Shown in pieces: positions 7,292 through 60,231 of a stretch of 64,000 nt of DNA. Position 1 is the stretch's first letter, and the number at the start of each line of letters is the position of its first letter. The notes below the pieces were generated by a model, which had not been told where the DNA came from, searched no databases, and was given only the letters and a program-made list of their open reading frames with translations. Both the position numbers and the translations under genes were made by a program. This stretch comes from Pirellulales bacterium. GTDB taxonomy: Bacteria > Planctomycetota > Planctomycetia > Pirellulales > Lacipirellulaceae. The DNA lies in NCBI GenBank assembly GCA_022448265.1, contig JAKVCC010000006.1:124001-188000 (forward strand). The letters run 5' to 3'.

Positions 7292-7783
7292 ATGTCCTCC
7301 AACTACCGCGTCCGCATCGAAAAAGAGCGACTGGTATTTAGTGCTGCCCATTTTATCACCTATGACGGTGATGTTTGTGAGCCGCTGCACGGTCACAATT
7401 ACCATGTGGCGGCAGAAGTACGGGGGCCATTGGATGAAAATCAGTACGTGATTGACTTCATTGTCTTGCGTGATGCCTTGCAGGTGATTGTCGATTCTTT
7501 GGATCACCGCATGCTCTTGCCCACCGGCCACCCGACGATCTCAGTGATTCAGCAGGCCGGCGAGGTCGAAGTGACGCACGGGCAGCGGCGGTGGGTCTTT
7601 CCGCAGCAAGACTGCGTGCTGCTGCCCGTCCCCAACACGACTGCCGAGGTCCTCGCACGTCATATTGGCGGGGAGTTGCTTCGCAAGCTCCAGGAGCAAG
7701 TGGGCACCCGACCCACCTATCTCAGCATCGCGGTGGACGAGTGCGACGGGCAGTGGGGAATTTGGGAGTCGACGGACGAGTAA
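7292..7783 (+). CDS. 6-pyruvoyltetrahydropterin synthase / QueD family protein
   Basis: 163 residues. Seen: the zinc ligands of the PTPS fold, one His in FSAAHF and two in HGHNY, with the catalytic Cys just before the latter (CEPLHGHNY). The C-terminal part holds TTAEVLARHI and a conserved VDECDGQWG segment. Family members act on 7,8-dihydroneopterin triphosphate in pterin, queuosine or methanopterin synthesis. Neighbourhood with a CitG-like gene, and mch 11 kb away, suggests a methanopterin-type cofactor, but queuosine synthesis cannot be excluded. About 50 bp separate it from the preceding gene; that gap holds a short CTCGCTCCT repeat. Confidence 0.82.
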   Translation: MSSNYRVRIEKERLVFSAAHFITYDGDVCEPLHGHNYHVAAEVRGPLDENQYVIDFIVLRDALQVIVDSLDHRMLLPTGHPTISVIQQAGEVEVTHGQRRWVFPQQDCVLLPVPNTTAEVLARHIGGELLRKLQEQVGTRPTYLSIAVDECDGQWGIWESTDE

Positions 7784-7958: not shown

Positions 7959-8494
7959 ATGCCGGATATCCACAAAGCGGCTGTGTTGCTTACTTCGCTG
8001 CCGGTGGCATTGACCAAGCAAAAAACTTAGTGCAGAAATCGCTCAAAAAAACGCAAATGACACGCTCAATAGTATTGGGCAGTCGTTCAGATCTGTGCCG
8101 TTTTCCTTCTTGCGGCAGGTGGATAGCCAGAACGTCCTGGCTTGTATCATTGACGAACATCCCCAGACGATTGTCCTGATTTCTTTAGCATATCCCCGCG
8201 GCGGCGGGGCGGAGATTCTGGCCGGCCTTGCTCCAGATCAGCAGTTGCAAGTTGTGCAGCCCATATCCTCGTTGGGTTAAACCAGTCCAGAGATCATCGA
8301 ACAAGTTGAGCAGGGCCTGGAAAGACGTATGTCGAGCGTCATGAGTTAGAGCTTCGGAAATGCCGGGGCGTGGGCGCCGTTGCCAAGATGCTCAAAGAAG
8401 AGATGGAATTCTCTGCGCAGTCAAGTTTTTGGTCGGCGAGGGCAAGCAACAGGAGATTGTTGATATTGCTTGTCTCCTGGAAGATTCGGGTTAG
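7959..8494 (+). pseudogene. fliG: Degraded fliG (flagellar motor switch protein)
   Basis: Starts with an ATG giving MPDIHKAAVLLTSLPVALTK, the FliG N-terminal signature, then hits a TAG. From about 8098 another frame reads PFSFLRQVDSQNVLACIIDE followed by HPQTIVLISL and AEILAGLAPDQQLQ, a close match to the FliG middle domain, and stops at TAA (8278). In that frame it resumes as TSPEIIEQVEQGLERRMSSV and stops at TAG. Further pieces of the C-terminal half run to about 8494 in shifted frames. Several stops and frameshifts, plus loss of most of the N-terminal domain, make it non-functional. No other flagellar switch or export gene is in the window. Confidence 0.85.
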
Positions 8495-8702
8495 TTAGAA
8501 CTTGACACGGGTGGTAAGTAAGAGGAATTGGTGCAGTAGGGGTTGCCAGGTGCCCCTTTCGAGTTGCCGTTGCGGGTTGCAATTCTGGGTTAAAAGTCGC
8601 TATCTCCTTTCTGGCTTTCCTTCCGGACTCACGCTCCCCCTTCCACCCTCCCCCCCCTGTCGATTAGCATAATCTGCTGTTACGTCTTGACAGCGGAGAT
8701 GC

Positions 8703-11438
8703 ATGCCGATGGTCGCCGAGCCTGCCACCTTGACGCCGATGATGCGCCAGTATCATGATGCCAAAGTGGCGGCGGGCGACGCTCTGTTACTGTTTCGGAT
8801 GGGCGACTTTTACGAGTTGTTTTTAGATGACGCCAAGGTGGCTGCGCGGGTGCTGGGCTTGTCGCTCACCAGTCGCGATAAGGGCGAAAACCCGATCGCC
8901 ATGGCCGGCTTTCCCCACCACCAGCTGGATAGCTATCTCGCCAAAATTATTGCTGCGGGCATGCGCGCGGCCGTCTGCGAGCAAGTAGAAGATCCGCGGC
9001 AAGCTAAGGGCCTCGTCCAGCGCGACATCACCCGCGTGGTCAGTCGCGGCACCGTCCTTGACGATGGATTGCTCGATCCACGCGCCAGCAATTTCCTGGC
9101 TGCTATCTGGTCGCCAAAGTCACGGGAAGCGGATTGGGGCATGGCGTGGATCGATATTTCCACGGGCCTGTTTGAAGCTGCGCTGGTGTCAGGTGCCAAG
9201 TTGGGTGACGAATTGGCCCGTGTGGCCCCGGTTGAAATATTGCTAGCCGAAGATGCTGAGGATTTGCCATGTGAGTGGACCGAAGGGCGTCTGGTCACCC
9301 GCCGCGCAGATTGGGCATTTGGCCAGCAAGCCACGACCTCGGCACTGACTAGGCATTTTGGAACGCATTCGCTGGAAGGCTTTGGATTTTCGAGTAGCGA
9401 TGGATCGGCGCTCGCGGCGGCCGGAGCCATACTCGAGTACCTTCACGAGACGCAAAAAACGTCGCTGGCTCACGTGGACCGGTTGGTGCGCTACGGCGCT
9501 GGAACCCGTTTGGAAATTGACGAGGCGACGCGCCGCAGTCTGGAGATATCGCAAACACTGCGTGATGGGCGCCGCGAAGGGTCGCTCTTAGGCGTGATGG
9601 ACCGTACGGTGACCTCCACTGGTGCACGACTCCTGAATGAATGGTTGGCAAACCCGCTCACAGATGTGGACGCGATCGCTGCCCGGCTTGAGGCAGTTGC
9701 GGAGTTTTTTGCAGACGTCGCTCTCACCACGCAACTGCGCGAATCGCTGCGATCGACGTATGATGTGCAGCGACTACTGGCACGGGTTACCACTGGGCGA
9801 GCCACGCCTCGAGATCTTAGTTTTGTAGCAAGAACGCTGGCGTGTCTTCCCAAAGTTAGAGCCAAATTGTCTGGCCGTGGCGCCGCTCGTCTCCAGTTTT
9901 TGGAAACACGTGTGGATCTTTGTGTTGACTTGCGCGAGCAGTTGGAAGCGGCCCTCGATGACGAATGTCCGCTCGCGTGTCGCGAGGGCGGCTACATTCG
10001 TTCTGGATTTCATGAGGAACTCGACCGGCAACGTGCGCTGTTGAAGGGTGGCAAGCAGTGGATGGCCGAGTACCAGGCCCAGGCTGTAGAGACGACGGGC
10101 ATTCCCAATATCAAAGTCGGTTTTAACAAAGTGTTTGGTTATTACCTCGAGGTCACCCATGCCCAGCGCGACAAGGTGCCTACCGAGTTTATTCGCAAGC
10201 AGACCTTAAAGAACGCGGAGCGCTATATTACGCCTGAGCTGAAAGAATACGAAGAAAAAGTCCTTGCCGCCGAGGGGCGGTGCCTGGAATTGGAGTACGA
10301 ATTATTCGTTCAACTTCGAGAGTGCGTGGCGGCGGTAGCTAACCGGCTTCAGCAAACGGCCCAGGCGCTTGCGGAGGTGGATGTGCTGGCCGCACTTGCC
10401 GAACTGGCCCGAGCGAGGAACTACGTTCGCCCCCACGTCGTAGCTGAGTCGGTCCTGGAGATCGTTGAGGGCCGCCACCCAGTGCTTGATATTACTGAGC
10501 CGGAGGGGACGTTTGTCCCAAATAGTGTGAGTTGCGAGGCACAAGCCACGGGGCGTGAGAAAGTAGCGGAGAACGCCAGCTCAAAACTCGAAACAGGCCC
10601 CCCACAACTCCTGCTGATTACGGGCCCCAACATGGCCGGCAAGAGTACCTATATTCGTCAGGTTGCATTGATCACGCTGATGGGCCAAGTGGGAAGTTTT
10701 GTACCTGCTCGGAGCGCAACGATTGGCGTGGCAGACCGTATTTTTGCGAGGGTGGGGGCCAGTGATGATTTGGCACGGGGACGCAGCACCTTCATGGTGG
10801 AAATGACTGAGACCGCCCGTATTCTCAACACGGCTACCGCGCGGAGTTTGGTGATTCTGGATGAAATTGGTCGCGGTACTAGCACCTACGACGGATTGTC
10901 GCTGGCCTGGGCTGTGGTTGAGCATTTGCACAACCGGCTGGGCTGCCGCACGCTCTTTGCCACGCACTATCACGAACTCACTTGCTTAGAAGGGTCGCTC
11001 CCCGGCGTGGCCAACCACAACGTGGCGGTCCAAGATTGGGAGGGGCAGGTGGTGTTTCTCCACAAAATCGCTGCTGGCGCCGCGGACAAGAGCTATGGGA
11101 TCCACGTCGCTAAGCTGGCGGGTGTGCCGCAGGAGGTCCGTGCCCGAGCCGCCGAAATATTGGCGGGCCTGGAAAACAAGCGTGGAAAGCGGAATTCGGC
11201 GGACCAAACGTTGGCCTCTCAGGCGACTTTGCGGATGGATCCACCCGGAGGAGTTGGCCCGCGGAAGGGCCGGCCACTGCAAATGACGTTATTCGAAACG
11301 GCCGAGCACCCGTTGCTCGAGAAGATCCGCAGCGTCGACTTGAATAGCCTGTCGCCGCTGGAGGTGCAGCAACTCGCATATGGGTGGCAGGAGCAACTGT
11401 CGCAGCATGCACCGAGCGAAAGCGGCAAACCGGGTTAA
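8703..11438 (+). CDS. mutS: DNA mismatch repair protein MutS
   Basis: 911 residues, normal for MutS1. Seen: the N-terminal mismatch-binding domain with the FRMGDFYELF motif (the intercalating Phe-x-Glu has the form DFYELF), the connector, the lever/clamp region, and the C-terminal ATPase with Walker A GPNMAGKSTYIRQ near residue 640, Walker B LVILDEIGRGTSTYDG and TLFATHYHELT. It recognises mispairs and recruits MutL; mutL is not here. The GGAG of a possible ribosome site sits just before ATG 8703; a second ATG at 8709 is possible. It converges on the redoxin gene with only 4 bp between the stops. Confidence 0.97.
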   Translation: MPMVAEPATLTPMMRQYHDAKVAAGDALLLFRMGDFYELFLDDAKVAARVLGLSLTSRDKGENPIAMAGFPHHQLDSYLAKIIAAGMRAAVCEQVEDPRQAKGLVQRDITRVVSRGTVLDDGLLDPRASNFLAAIWSPKSREADWGMAWIDISTGLFEAALVSGAKLGDELARVAPVEILLAEDAEDLPCEWTEGRLVTRRADWAFGQQATTSALTRHFGTHSLEGFGFSSSDGSALAAAGAILEYLHETQKTSLAHVDRLVRYGAGTRLEIDEATRRSLEISQTLRDGRREGSLLGVMDRTVTSTGARLLNEWLANPLTDVDAIAARLEAVAEFFADVALTTQLRESLRSTYDVQRLLARVTTGRATPRDLSFVARTLACLPKVRAKLSGRGAARLQFLETRVDLCVDLREQLEAALDDECPLACREGGYIRSGFHEELDRQRALLKGGKQWMAEYQAQAVETTGIPNIKVGFNKVFGYYLEVTHAQRDKVPTEFIRKQTLKNAERYITPELKEYEEKVLAAEGRCLELEYELFVQLRECVAAVANRLQQTAQALAEVDVLAALAELARARNYVRPHVVAESVLEIVEGRHPVLDITEPEGTFVPNSVSCEAQATGREKVAENASSKLETGPPQLLLITGPNMAGKSTYIRQVALITLMGQVGSFVPARSATIGVADRIFARVGASDDLARGRSTFMVEMTETARILNTATARSLVILDEIGRGTSTYDGLSLAWAVVEHLHNRLGCRTLFATHYHELTCLEGSLPGVANHNVAVQDWEGQVVFLHKIAAGAADKSYGIHVAKLAGVPQEVRARAAEILAGLENKRGKRNSADQTLASQATLRMDPPGGVGPRKGRPLQMTLFETAEHPLLEKIRSVDLNSLSPLEVQQLAYGWQEQLSQHAPSESGKPG

Positions 11439-54903: not shown

Positions 54904-57900
54904 CTACGCTGCTTTGGCGCTACTGTCGGGTTGCCGGATGTGCCCATCGGCTGTCACGTCTTCAAACCGAACTGAGACGCGCTTCGAGATTCCGGACTCT
55001 TGCATCGTGATCCCGTAGAGCGTGTCGGCACACGACATGGTCCGTTTCGAGTGAGTGACCACAATAAACTGAGTTGAGCTCATGAACTCTTTGAGCACAT
55101 CCACAAAGCGGGCGATATTGGCTTCGTCGAGTGCCGCATCCACCTCATCAAGTACGCAAAAAGGGCTTGGGCGACTACGAAAAATAGCCAATAGGAGTGC
55201 TACGCAGGTAAGCGTGCGTTCGCCGCCAGATAGTAGTGAAATACTGCGTGGTTGATTGCCCGGCGGACGTGCGATGATCTCGATCCCGCATTCTAGAACG
55301 TCTTCGACCTCACTATTGTCAATGATGATGTCTGCCTCGCCACCCCCAAATAGATTGCGGTAAAGTTCTTGGAAGTGTCCGCGAATTACATCCAGGGCGC
55401 TGACAAACAGTTCACGGCTTTCCGCGTTGATCTGCGCGACCAGTCGTTCCAGTCGTAGCTTGGCACTCCGCAAGTCCTCGTATTGTTGCGAAAGATTTGT
55501 GTGGCGCTCCTCCACGGCCTCCAACTCCGAAAGTGCCTCAATATTCACGGGCCCGATCGTTTGAAGTTTTTGGCGCAAGGACCCGATTTCTTGATCAATT
55601 TGATCGCGAGGGCCAAGTTCCACGATTGGCTCTGTCGTGGCGAGCAGCGGTAGGTCGAAGTCAAATTCTTCTGAGAGGCGGGTCGTCAGCTCAGAACGCC
55701 TCTGCTTCACTTGCTGTAAGTGAAGCTCGGATTGCTGGAGCGCGCTTTGACTGTGGAGTAGCTGTTCGCGGATTTGATCAGAGGTCCGCAGAAGCTCCGC
55801 GCGTTGTTTTCGCTGTTCACCGTGGGCATTCGCCAGAGATTCCGATTTGGCAGCTAAGGTTTCTTTGGTCCGAAATAACTCGGCCAACTCACTACCAAAG
55901 TCAAGGACCGACCGCTTCAGTTCCTGCTGTTGTTGATGGCATTGGGTATCACGGTGCTGGGTCTCGGCCAGCGCTCGATCGTGTTCGGCGTGGTCGCGCT
56001 GGAGTTGTTCCATTTGGAGCCGCAATCCATCGCGACGTTGCTCACTGCGGGCTAGGGCCACGCGATAGTCGGTTACCGTCTTTTGCAATTCGGTAACTTG
56101 TTCCTCTAATTCCTTGCCCGTTTCCGACCACTGCTGCAAAGATGCCTCAAGTTTTTGCAATTGGTCTTGTTGGATCGTCACCTGCTGTCGGCGGGTTTCC
56201 AAATCCTTTGCAGCTGAGTTAGCCTGGTTGCCAGAAGTCGCGTGTTCTTCCGCCGCGATCGCATGTTGCTGGTTGGCCTGATCGGCCCGCTCGCGCAGTG
56301 CAGCCGCCTGGAGCTGGACTTTGTTCAGTTTCCCAGAAAGCTGCTTGTGGCGAGCTGCCAGTTGCTGCTGCTCTTGTTCCTCCTCGCGGACAGAGGATTC
56401 CAGTCTCTCGCAAACAACTTGTTTTTGTTCGGCAAGTGTTTCCATGTTACGGATTTCATCGACTAGCGCGCGCAGTTCGCTACGGCGCGAGAGCAATCCC
56501 GTGGTTGATTGCCGGGGTCCAACAATCAGTGTTCCGTCGGCCGCTACGACTTCGCCTACGACGGTGACATAATTCAATCCGCGACCGATGCCGCCGGCAA
56601 GTCGCATGGCAGTGGGTAGAGAATCAACAAACCACCAACGCCCCAAGAGCCTCCGGGCCAGACTCCCCAGGTCGATGGTCGTTTCCACGAATCGGTCGGC
56701 TCTCCCCATCACGCCGGGCTCGCTGCTCAAATCGATACGATCTACGGCACTGGCTGGCAGCGGGACATCGAGCCGCAAAAAGCTCGTTCGTCCAGCCCAG
56801 TCGGTCTCGGCCATCGTAAAGAAGGAGGGGTCCGCCTGATCGATAAGTAGGTGATTGGACCGGTCGCCTAGCGCAGTTTCCACAAGTGCTGCGGTGTCCG
56901 CGTCAACGCAGAGTAGATCGGCAACCACTCCGCGCACGCATCCAAAAGGGCCTTGGGGCTCATCGCGAGATAGCCGGAGGACTTCTTTTGTCCCGGCACT
57001 GAGTCCGTCGAGTCGCCGCTCCAGTTCTTCTAGTACGATGGCTCTTTCCCGTGCCCCGGTTAAACGCCCTCGCAAATCGGCCAGCTCAGCCTGTGACTGC
57101 GCAAGAAGTTGCCGATTTTCTTCCAATTGTCTTTGGACGCGTGTCAATTGTTGGTGCGCAGTTTGGGTGGCATCCTCCATGCGTTGCAACGTGCCTTCGA
57201 CCTCGGCAATTTGCCGGTCTAGCTCTGCCCGAGCCGTTTCGGCATACTGCAATTGCTCTCGGTAGCGCTCGCACGTTGCCATGGCATGGGTGCGCTGCGA
57301 CTCGAGTGCCTGAATTTGGTTTTCGAGCTGAGATGCCTCGCGAAACTTTGTCGCATGCTCTTCGCGCCACGTGTCGAGATTGCCACGACACTCGGCGAGA
57401 TCTTTTTGCGCAACGTCGAGCCGGCTCTGGTCGGACTGGACTTGGCCATCAATGTCACTGTATTGAGATTCGGCTGCTTGTAGCTGGCCCGTAGTTTCAG
57501 CAACGAGTTGCTCCGCGTCTCCGGCCCGGGATGTCATCGCCAGCAATTGTCGCTTGAGCCGGACAGATTCTTGCTGCAGTTCGTCACAACGGGCCAATTG
57601 ACTTCGCCGGGTCGATTCGCATTGAGCGATTCGCTCACGCACGGTGGCCAGGGAATCGCTGGTTTGATTGAGCTGGGTTTGCAGTTGGTCGGACTCAGTT
57701 TCTGAAGCAGCAATCCGTGTTTGGCTCTCAGTCGTTTGTTGTTGGAGTTGATCGCTCACGCCTTTGTTTTTTTCGACGGCCGCCTCCAGCTTCTTCCATT
57801 CGGCCGATAGATCACGCCAGTCCGCCAATGCGACCTGGGTGCGAAGTTGCTTTAGTCGATCGGATTGCTCCTTGTACTTGCGAGCCCGGCCAGCCTGGGA

Positions 57901-58515
57901 ACGTACAGTATGAAGCCGCGAATCGAGTTCGTCGACGATGTCGGAAAGCCGCAGAAGATTTTGCTCAACGCGCTCCAGACGCCGCGTGGCTTCTTGTCGT
58001 TTGATTTTAAACCGGCTAACCCCGGCGGCTTCTTCAAAAATTAGGCGTCGATCGCGGGGCGACGACTGAAGTAAGGCATCGACCTTCCCCTGCTCAATAA
58101 TGCTGTAGGCACCGCTGGAGACTCCCGTGCCGGCAAATACTTCGCGGATATCGCGGAGGCGTACCTGCTGCTGGTTGATCAAATACTCGCCTTCGCCGCT
58201 GTGGTACACCCGGCGCGTGACTTGTACTTCATCAGCGTCGAAATCGAGGATTCCGGTCGTGTTGTCGAAGACGAGTGTGACTTCTGCCGCATTGGATTGC
58301 TTGCGGCCCCTCGTGCCGCTAAAAATGACATCCGTCATTTCCTTGCCGCGCAATGCCTTAGCGCTTTGCGAACCAAGTACCCATTTGATGGCATCGACGA
58401 CATTCGATTTCCCCGAGCCATTCGGGCCTACAACCGACGTTATGCCCGACGAGAACTCAAACCGAGTACGGTCGGAAAAACTTTTGAAGCCATAGAGTTC
58501 CAGCGCTTTGAACAT
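54904..58515 (-). CDS. smc: Chromosome segregation protein SMC
   Basis: 1203 residues, normal for bacterial SMC. Seen: an N-terminal ATPase half with Walker A GPNGSGKSNVVDAIKWVLGS (near residues 32-39), two long coiled coils (about 170-490 and 670-1010), the hinge between them (about 510-655, with GVVADLLCVDADTAALVETA and LRLAGGIGRGLNYVTVVG), and the C-terminal half with signature SLLSGGERTLTCVALLLAIF and Walker B PFCVLDEVDAALDEANIARF. It compacts and segregates DNA together with ScpA and ScpB, which are not here. It starts 6 bp after the FlgI-like gene, so the two are cotranscribed. Confidence 0.97.
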   Translation of the reverse strand: MFKALELYGFKSFSDRTRFEFSSGITSVVGPNGSGKSNVVDAIKWVLGSQSAKALRGKEMTDVIFSGTRGRKQSNAAEVTLVFDNTTGILDFDADEVQVTRRVYHSGEGEYLINQQQVRLRDIREVFAGTGVSSGAYSIIEQGKVDALLQSSPRDRRLIFEEAAGVSRFKIKRQEATRRLERVEQNLLRLSDIVDELDSRLHTVRSQAGRARKYKEQSDRLKQLRTQVALADWRDLSAEWKKLEAAVEKNKGVSDQLQQQTTESQTRIAASETESDQLQTQLNQTSDSLATVRERIAQCESTRRSQLARCDELQQESVRLKRQLLAMTSRAGDAEQLVAETTGQLQAAESQYSDIDGQVQSDQSRLDVAQKDLAECRGNLDTWREEHATKFREASQLENQIQALESQRTHAMATCERYREQLQYAETARAELDRQIAEVEGTLQRMEDATQTAHQQLTRVQRQLEENRQLLAQSQAELADLRGRLTGARERAIVLEELERRLDGLSAGTKEVLRLSRDEPQGPFGCVRGVVADLLCVDADTAALVETALGDRSNHLLIDQADPSFFTMAETDWAGRTSFLRLDVPLPASAVDRIDLSSEPGVMGRADRFVETTIDLGSLARRLLGRWWFVDSLPTAMRLAGGIGRGLNYVTVVGEVVAADGTLIVGPRQSTTGLLSRRSELRALVDEIRNMETLAEQKQVVCERLESSVREEEQEQQQLAARHKQLSGKLNKVQLQAAALRERADQANQQHAIAAEEHATSGNQANSAAKDLETRRQQVTIQQDQLQKLEASLQQWSETGKELEEQVTELQKTVTDYRVALARSEQRRDGLRLQMEQLQRDHAEHDRALAETQHRDTQCHQQQQELKRSVLDFGSELAELFRTKETLAAKSESLANAHGEQRKQRAELLRTSDQIREQLLHSQSALQQSELHLQQVKQRRSELTTRLSEEFDFDLPLLATTEPIVELGPRDQIDQEIGSLRQKLQTIGPVNIEALSELEAVEERHTNLSQQYEDLRSAKLRLERLVAQINAESRELFVSALDVIRGHFQELYRNLFGGGEADIIIDNSEVEDVLECGIEIIARPPGNQPRSISLLSGGERTLTCVALLLAIFRSRPSPFCVLDEVDAALDEANIARFVDVLKEFMSSTQFIVVTHSKRTMSCADTLYGITMQESGISKRVSVRFEDVTADGHIRQPDSSAKAA

Positions 58516-58521
58516 GGGTTT

Positions 58522-60231
58522 TTAGCTCTTGCGGCCAAATAGCTCCGGCTGGGGCGTCTGGATTTGGTAGGAATCAGCCTCAGGAGTTGGGGAGCCTTGA
58601 TTTGATTTCAGCAACTCTTCCGCGGCTCCGGGCAAGGCATCTACTCGGAAACGACTGGTGAGAGAGCCGGTGTCCTTAGCTTGTTGCAGCATTTGCACGA
58701 CATCTGGATAATCCCCACCCAGTTCGACCACGGTTGCAATCACTTCGCGGAGGTTGTTGGTAATGACGCGCTGTTCGGTTGTTTTACCGAAGCGGCTAAT
58801 TTTGACTTCTGCTCCACTTAGACCATTGACGAGAATTCTCGGTCCTGCGTCGAGTACCAGCGGTAATTTTAGTTGTTGGTTATTGCCGAACAGAACGATT
58901 TCGGGCTTGTGGCTGCGAGTGACGTGGACCAAGGGTTCGCCCGGAATATCCAGCAGATGGAAGGTAAATTTTCCGTTCATGTCTTTTCCCCGAACAAACG
59001 GATCATTGGGCGACATCGCCGATAACGAACGGAAAGCCCCATAGCGGGTCTGCGCGCTCTTGACTTCCAGCAGGGAGCGCAACTCGTCGTAGGCGGCGCC
59101 ATCGTCCATCGCGCTGAGCGCCACCAGAGCATGGGCGCGGAAGGCAGGTTCTTCGCGGGCAATATTAGCCAGCGAAACGACCGCTTCGGTGATGTCGAGA
59201 TAGGCAAGGGCTTCCGCGGCATAAAAACGGACTTCAGGATCCTCGGCATTGAGTCCTTGCATGAGAACGTCGACGGCCGACTCGTTGCCAATCGCTTCCA
59301 GCCGCAGGGCCGCCGAGGCAGAGGTGATGGGATCGAGTAACTGGTTCCGCAAGAGATTCAACCGCGTTTCGATCTGCTTATGAGATTCCGACAGCGCAAT
59401 GCTGCGCACAATTCGCATGTATCTGCCTACGTTGTCTTTGTAGCGAGGATGGAGTTGGATTTCGATAAATTCATCCGTCTTGGGGGTGGCAACTCCCTCC
59501 CTTTGCCCGTCATAGTAGCTGAAGAAACGCTTGTTGATGGCTTTGCCGACGGACTGGCTCATGCGAACTGACTGGCGCTCGTGATCGAGAATGAGTCCTA
59601 AACCCCGCGATTTGATCGCCCGCCCACCGCCCAGCACGCGGCCGGTTCGGGCGAACGCTGCGTCTTCCTGCGAGTTCATAGCGGGATCAACGAGCACGGC
59701 ACCACGGGCGCGTGCCATCGGGTGTCCCTGGCGAATCTGACCGCCCAATACGGCCATTTCTTTGAGTCGCGTATCCAGGAGTTGCCCGCCCCGTAAACTC
59801 GTGGTGGCGCTTCGCGATGGGGCCCGAACCTCGACATCGAATTTCTCACCGGTTTGGATACCGGGCCGTAGGAAAGCTCGCACCAGCACCAAAGCTGTAT
59901 TGGGCGATGCTAAGACTTGATTGGGATTCTCCACATCCCGACGATTCATTTCAGCCAAAAGGGCCGCACGTTGGGGCGAAGGAGGAGGATCTTCGCCCGT
60001 CCCGGACAATCCGGTCAACAAGGCAACGGATTCCAGCTTGATATAGCCTAGCCCGTGGGGATGCGCTACCTCGCCGACGAGCAGGGTTTTGGGTGATTCA
60101 TCACAATCAACTTGCGCTTCGGGGCTTTGAGGTCGGAAGATGGGATTCATGCAGCCAGAGGCCGACAGACATAAGCCTATCGCCAGACAGCCGGAAGTGC
60201 GCAACGTTTTCTTGGACCCGTTGAGTCTCAC
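58522..60231 (-). CDS. FlgI-like (flagellar P-ring) lipoprotein with HEAT repeats
   Basis: 569 residues from GTG 60231. A lipoprotein signal ends in LCLSASGC. Residues about 45-290 resemble FlgI: GLGYIKLESVALLTGLSGTG, PNQVLASPNTALVLVRAFLR, PGIQTGEKFDVEVRAPSRSA and TSLRGGQLLDTRLKEMAVLG. Residues about 300-430 are HEAT-like (ALRLEAIGNESAVDVLMQGL, YAAEALAYLDITEAVVSLAN). A further domain (430-560) is unrecognised. True FlgI is an unlipidated periplasmic ring of about 350 residues. No flagellar operon is present; the only other trace is the dead fliG at 8 kb. It forms a run with smc. Confidence 0.75.
   Translation of the reverse strand: MRLNGSKKTLRTSGCLAIGLCLSASGCMNPIFRPQSPEAQVDCDESPKTLLVGEVAHPHGLGYIKLESVALLTGLSGTGEDPPPSPQRAALLAEMNRRDVENPNQVLASPNTALVLVRAFLRPGIQTGEKFDVEVRAPSRSATTSLRGGQLLDTRLKEMAVLGGQIRQGHPMARARGAVLVDPAMNSQEDAAFARTGRVLGGGRAIKSRGLGLILDHERQSVRMSQSVGKAINKRFFSYYDGQREGVATPKTDEFIEIQLHPRYKDNVGRYMRIVRSIALSESHKQIETRLNLLRNQLLDPITSASAALRLEAIGNESAVDVLMQGLNAEDPEVRFYAAEALAYLDITEAVVSLANIAREEPAFRAHALVALSAMDDGAAYDELRSLLEVKSAQTRYGAFRSLSAMSPNDPFVRGKDMNGKFTFHLLDIPGEPLVHVTRSHKPEIVLFGNNQQLKLPLVLDAGPRILVNGLSGAEVKISRFGKTTEQRVITNNLREVIATVVELGGDYPDVVQMLQQAKDTGSLTSRFRVDALPGAAEELLKSNQGSPTPEADSYQIQTPQPELFGRKS

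Follow-up and report, generated by a model that had tools for sequence, protein, structure and literature searches.

Buchnera builds flagellar basal bodies that have no filaments and keep their rod and hook parts, and Borrelia carries two fliG genes (FliG1/FliG2) with unequal roles. There are also bacteria in which flagellar export genes exist without a flagellum. For example, the non-flagellated Lysobacter enzymogenes OH11 keeps homologues of FlhA, FlhB, FliP, FliQ, FliR and FliI, and flhB and fliI are reported to be needed there to export a foreign flagellin, some of the export genes also affecting twitching (PMC7277350). Similarly, a non-flagellar type III secretion system (T3SS) of Myxococcales is described as having no secretin and as lacking FlgBCDEK, FliE, FliG, FlgH and MotAB, and in the view of Abby and Rocha injectisomes arose from flagella (PMC3459982). 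Furthermore, a hat-shaped membrane structure has been linked to fT3SS genes (PMC9380563), and convergent loss of flagella-related genes has been reported in Pseudomonadota (PMC13063649) and in Lysobacter (PMC9927559). Inferences about how flagella gave rise to secretion systems usually rest on deep trees.

The locus compared here lies in the window (the whole stretch of 64,000 nucleotides analysed), which belongs to contig C56 of G000, the Pirellulales draft genome under study; C7 and C14 are further contigs of G000, G001 and so on are other genomes, and L-numbers denote loci. An initial annotation had placed a dead fliG, broken by stops and frameshifts, between a PTPS-like gene and mutS, and this is borne out. 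The FliG middle-domain model matches C56:132128-132346 (window 8128-8346) with 58.8 bits (E 2e-15) across one internal TAA, and the intact FliG proteins of relatives match successive pieces in differing frames by tblastn, at up to 67% identity over 107 residues. When the remnant is read piecewise (a whole-length DNA alignment misplaced the half beyond the second deletion), it extends on the forward strand from the original start codon to the original stop, at 7959-8539. The annotation had ended it at 8494, 45 bases short of the native stop, and had correctly recognised the N-terminal and middle domains while overlooking a C-terminal tail. Its neighbours, both identified by family match and used as synteny markers, are the PTPS-like gene on the left (7292-7783, forward strand; PF01242, 70.7 bits) and mutS on the right (8703-11438, forward strand), which also serves as a rate control.

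The first piece of the forward-strand remnant (7959-8003) covers FliG residues 1-15 and ends at a deletion of about 50 residues, after which the linker ahead of the middle domain continues in a different frame (8000-8050). The middle domain follows at 8047-8367 with tblastn E values down to 3e-45, and carries stops at 8278 (TAA) and 8347 (TAG). At 8367-8420 a second deletion joins residues ~193-202 directly to residues ~281-290, and the C-terminal tail (8417-8539) has stops at 8492 (TAG) and 8519 (TAA) ahead of the native stop at 8537-8539. The remnant measures 581 bp versus 990-993 bp in the eight relatives measured, with ~50 residues missing past residue 15 and ~80 ahead of the C-terminal tail according to the residue numbers of the tblastn matches. 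Its reading frame is disabled by two large internal deletions, four premature stops and several frameshifts. In relatives, a similar short motif (EMLN and EMLKEE) occurs at both ends of the second deletion site, which suggests that the deletion took place between short repeats; it took away the sites of the lysine and the first arginine that contact the stator, and the acidic pair is readable just past the junction. The N-terminal, middle and C-terminal pieces all align with relatives, and the score, the ordering of these pieces and their conserved location rule out a chance resemblance. The sequence at 7959-8539 is a pseudogene of the canonical, torque-type fliG (fliG1). A short-peptide search of plasmids, which carries little weight, gave no match.

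Synteny in relatives, which the annotation had proposed as a check, places an intact fliG at the same spot between the PTPS-like gene and mutS in 11 of 13 same-genus relatives, with open frames of 330-381 residues. The PTPS-like gene adjoins it in all 11 same-genus loci read, and in 7 of these 11 relatives a CheX gene (PF13690, 95.4 bits in G009; L041:4592-5080) stands between the two. A tie between the loss of cheX and that of the flagellum or fliG was considered and rejected, since no cheX was found at this position in four of the 11 relatives (G003, G004, G006 and G010) and the window holds no trace of it. The fliG1 locus was not found in the two remaining relatives, drafts G002 and G005. 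They were rejected as further losers of fliG1, since each has flagellin, rod genes and MotB; with these flagellar genes in place and a close PTPS-like match, present in 12 of the 14 same-genus genomes (G000 included), absent from both, a gap in the drafts is the likelier reason for not finding the locus.

The annotation had also judged the loss recent enough to be readable, which agrees with the intact genes of relatives and with the divergence of the remnant. Compared with eight relatives over the middle part of fliG1, the remnant shows differences at 27%, 17% and 58% of codon positions 1, 2 and 3; among the intact genes the figures are 18%, 7% and 57%. The excess therefore falls on positions 1 and 2, with hardly any at the near-saturated position 3, as expected from release from selection, and a rough estimate gives ~0.1 neutral changes per site since inactivation.

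The same annotation had interpreted the remnant as the loss of the switch gene, which holds for the torque-type fliG1 but not for the genome, where a second, divergent fliG is intact. This gene, fliG2, is an open frame of 400 codons matching FliG_N (54.5 bits), FliG_M (75.3 bits) and FliG_C (54.5 bits), and it sits in a fliE-fliF-fliG2-fliH-fliI-fliJ ... fliN-fliO-fliP-fliQ-fliR-flhB operon on contig C7, away from the contig of fliG1. In E. coli FliG, contact with the stator is attributed primarily to R281, D288 and D289, with K264 and R297 of secondary importance (PMC6079164). Thermotoga chain 1lkv, the FliG1 of six relatives and the FliG2 of seven species (G000 and six relatives) were aligned for comparison. 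At the alignment positions that we take to correspond to these E. coli residues, the FliG1 of all six relatives has the lysine, the arginine and the acidic pair of the first four contacts. FliG2 does not carry charged residues at all five positions: in all seven species A or V replaces the lysine and the acidic pair is lost, so that three of the five contacts are absent, with basic residues retained where R281 and R297 would fall. Both proteins have the EHPQT motif in their middle domain. Because FliG2 is without three contacts that the intact relatives of the dead gene keep, it was the torque or motor-type paralogue that died, and FliG2 is, to judge from these residues, already unlike a torque FliG in the flagellated relatives.

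Losses in G000 go well beyond fliG1. In a profile search of the genome, MotB_plug, Flagellin_N and Flg_bb_rod had no match; among the 13 same-genus relatives they were matched in 12, 13 and 13, respectively. The heading of the annotation had offered a lost flagellum or a lost paralogue, and both hold. In the operon of G001, the interval between fliJ and fliN contains a 231-residue gene, FliK, FlgD, FlgE, FlbD, MotA, MotB and a FliL-like gene, the last being a weak match (17.3 bits, under its cut-off). The FliK-FlgD-FlgE-FlbD-MotA-MotB block is absent inside one G000 contig, where MotA and FlgE were sought by similarity in the operon region. At the edges of the missing block lie fragments of two broken genes, the fliL-like one (L034:7559-8191) and the 231-residue one (L034:8083-8367), and next to the open fliE is a piece of flgC containing a stop (L034:14412-14576). 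The 231-residue gene, which had no Pfam match in relatives, is intact in one of them between fliJ and fliK (L089:11531-12223) and goes together with the motor genes. A complete flagellum, with filament, rod/hook and stator genes, was thus not found in G000, MotA and the hook having been checked against the operon region. The swimming flagellum has apparently been lost from this lineage, the decay of fliG1 in place being part of that loss.

It is very improbable that a normal flagellum is present and that its missing genes simply lie outside the 87 contigs. The assembly is indeed a draft (97.28% complete, 3.16% contaminated), but the operon block is gone from within one contig that has both flanks and the gene scraps, the rod and flagellin genes of relatives lie at several loci and none was matched in G000, and relatives that are 76-87% complete still show flagellin and rod genes (G012 having no MotB match). 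Even less credible, to the point of being negligible, is the loss of a redundant paralogue alone, with FliG2 now driving a working flagellum: the intactness of FliG2 and its matches to all three FliG domains would suit this, but G000 has no match for flagellin, rod or MotB, and the three stator contacts are absent from FliG2 in flagellated relatives as well.

The window also contains, at 58522-60231 on the reverse strand, an intact frame of 569 residues with a FlgI (P-ring) match of 67.7 bits followed by HEAT repeats. This gene adjoins an SMC gene (54904-58515), in a genome with no rod-protein match. The annotation had connected the fliG remnant with a FlgI-like relic, a connection that is at most putative.

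The search of the whole genome that the annotation had called for also revealed what is kept. Fourteen genes are open in G000, namely those for FliE, FliF, FliG2, FliH, FliI, FliJ, FliM, FliN, FliO, FliP, FliQ, FliR, FlhA and FlhB, among which FliM (C14) and FlhA (C7) are full-length frames. Pfam matches over the cut-off were obtained for each member of the export apparatus set (FlhA, FlhB, FliP, FliQ and FliR, with FliH, FliI and FliJ), and the retained genes add up to ~13.6 kb of open frames (summed lengths, FlhA approximate). The annotation was confirmed in its observation and partly supported in its interpretation, which is right in outline but too narrow.

Rates of change were expressed as the mean distance between G000 and its relatives divided by the mean distance among the relatives (two relatives for FlhB, four for FliR, five for FliP and six for the others, FliQ being left out), with MutS, PTPS, CitG and an alpha/beta hydrolase as four controls. 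The controls gave 0.94-1.22, and the core gave 1.10 for FliP, 1.03 for FliR, 1.03 for FliO, 1.19 for FliI, 1.12 for FliH, 1.20 for FlhB, 1.19 for FlhA and 1.18 for FliG2. Higher ratios were found for FliE (1.47), FliF (1.40), FliJ (1.49), FliM (1.49) and FliN (1.73), and the middle part of the dead fliG was fastest at 2.38. Together with the open frames, these rates favour the view that the export core is under selection and that certain ring and accessory parts experience altered or relaxed selection, although the entire machine may be decaying slowly, because FliE, FliF, FliJ, FliM and FliN are faster than the controls.

Ordinary decay, meaning a recent loss of the flagellum after which unselected export genes have just not broken yet, is an unlikely account of this pattern. 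It would account for the visible breakage of fliG1, flgC, the fliL-like gene and the 231-residue gene and for the acceleration of FliE, FliF, FliJ, FliM and FliN. However, the 581 bases of fliG1 have collected four stops and several frameshifts against ~13.6 kb of retained open frames, the export core evolves at the rate of control genes, and about a hundred other species of the order have FliP and no flagellin among the matches listed.

We consider it likely that the flagellum has been lost and that the export apparatus and the inner-membrane and cytoplasmic ring genes have been kept, most probably as a protein exporter without a filament. The canonical motor gene fliG1 would have decayed in place as the filament, rod/hook and MotB genes went, leaving the export apparatus (FlhA, FlhB, FliP, FliQ, FliR and FliO, with FliH, FliI and FliJ) and the ring genes (FliE, FliF, FliM and FliN, with a FliG2 that is without most stator contacts). 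The two FliG proteins could have divided the work between them, so that FliG1 would serve the motor and go with it, and FliG2, encoded in the fliF operon, would serve the ring that bears the exporter and stay. The kept machine would still be assembled and would export a protein substrate in the absence of a filament. A somewhat unlikely alternative is that the core is kept for a role other than export, such as membrane nanotubes, a hat-shaped inner-membrane structure or the regulation of pili as in Lysobacter. Such roles have been reported or proposed for flagellar export genes elsewhere (PMC7277350, PMC9380563), and the nanotube CORE complex genes FliOPQR-FlhAB are present in G000; but the genome has retained the whole FliH-FliI-FliJ ATPase complex together with the FlhA-FlhB gate, as would suit an exporter.

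The combination of FliP with no flagellin recurs across the order holding Lacipirellulaceae and Pirellulaceae, sampled here as 246 species. Among the matches listed, FliP was found in 231 of the 246 and flagellin in 133, and 104 had FliP without detected flagellin; some of these 104 may not be flagellar remnants, because the FliP model also matches non-flagellar type III systems. A strong FliG match (E up to 1e-22) was listed for 118 of the 133 flagellin-bearing species and for 14 of the 104 with FliP only, giving a Fisher p of 9e-34 that is overstated because the species are related. The threshold is arbitrary, and at 1e-24 the counts among the matches listed become 113 of 133 and 8 of 104. 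Fifteen flagellin-bearing species had no strong FliG match, and any match at all to the FliG middle domain was seen in only 53 of the 104 flagellin-less FliP species, again among the matches listed. A family group, f7, comprises dozens of species with lower-scoring FliP and neither flagellin nor FliG among the matches listed, and could reflect a reduction of far greater age or else a different type III system.

The spacing between FliG and FliP was taken from 35 genomes chosen by eye in which both matches listed are on one contig, using the FliG match judged to be in the operon where there were several. Of the 27 flagellin-bearing genomes, 25 have a spacing of 12.9-16.9 kb (G111 with 6.4 kb and G027 with 533 kb being the exceptions), and of the eight flagellin-less genomes among these matches seven have 1.7-6.5 kb. 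The exception among the latter, G046 (13.2 kb), combines the long operon spacing and a strong FliG with no flagellin match, and its filament protein is perhaps divergent.

Six further loci, on named public contigs, have a shortened operon, L145 and L167 (Planctomycetaceae), L147 (listed as bacterium), L148 (Blastopirellula), L169 (Pirellulales) and L190 (Pirellulaceae), with the locus alone having been seen, so that missing genes may lie elsewhere in those genomes. FliG2-, FliH- and FliI-like matches are present in all six, FliN in five of the six, and FliF in all five whose contig reaches it; L145, counted as shortened, retains a rod-type gene. At L169:4192-5976 a single open frame of 595 residues matches YscJ_FliF, FliG_M and FliG_C, and would seem to be a FliF-FliG fusion in a shortened operon. 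A 634-residue open frame with FliG_M near FliP in G037 may be similar.

On a FliP tree, 26 of 81 rows could be labelled by operon state, 19 as long and seven as shortened (G000 included). The other 55 were left unlabelled owing to short flanks, unrecognised neighbours (for instance in the Rhodopirellula group) or a block that is partly seen; L125, L133 and L138, which have a FlgE match and no MotA or MotB match, are among them. Five changes of operon state are needed, three of them forced by well-supported branches, and although their direction is unoriented they are read as losses because regain of the whole block is unlikely. The operon label shows no clustering beyond chance over the 26 rows. 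G000 falls within a well-supported FliP group of eleven, ten of which have the long operon.

It is possible, though we put it forward tentatively and at something short of an even chance, that the flagellum of this order is built from a pair of diverged FliG proteins, the first serving torque and the second the export ring, and that this lets lineages repeatedly shed the same block and keep a working exporter. The order would then offer many independent replays of how a flagellum becomes a secretion system, and in some of them, as in G000, the fossils would still be visible in position. Within one genus there are species with the full organ and one with the wreckage of motor genes beside a seemingly constrained exporter, and a similar change seems to recur in the wider order. 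If this is true, the order of loss, its timing and the selection acting on it become measurable, and there would be a simple reason why one FliG can die while the other is kept. Among the literature matches listed, judged by titles and abstract openings, no kept exporter without a flagellum is treated for this planctomycete order.

To compare this locus with the systems described at the outset, it resembles Buchnera in that export parts outlive the swimming organ, and differs in that no rod or hook part was detected. Compared with Borrelia, it is here the canonical FliG copy that disappears along with the flagellum, leaving the one that lacks most stator contacts. As in the Pseudomonadota and Lysobacter losses, a partial loss of the flagellar gene set is repeated, here in a different phylum. 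The likeness to Lysobacter enzymogenes lies in flagellar export genes without a flagellum; the Lysobacter export genes form no operon (PMC7277350), whereas here most of them share a single shortened operon with genes of the MS-ring and C-ring, and such shortened operons recur across an order. Similarly, the T3SS of Myxococcales is a flagellum-derived export system without rod, hook, stator and other motility genes, like the one proposed here, but it is without FliE and FliG (PMC3459982), and in this planctomycete FliE and a divergent FliG are kept.
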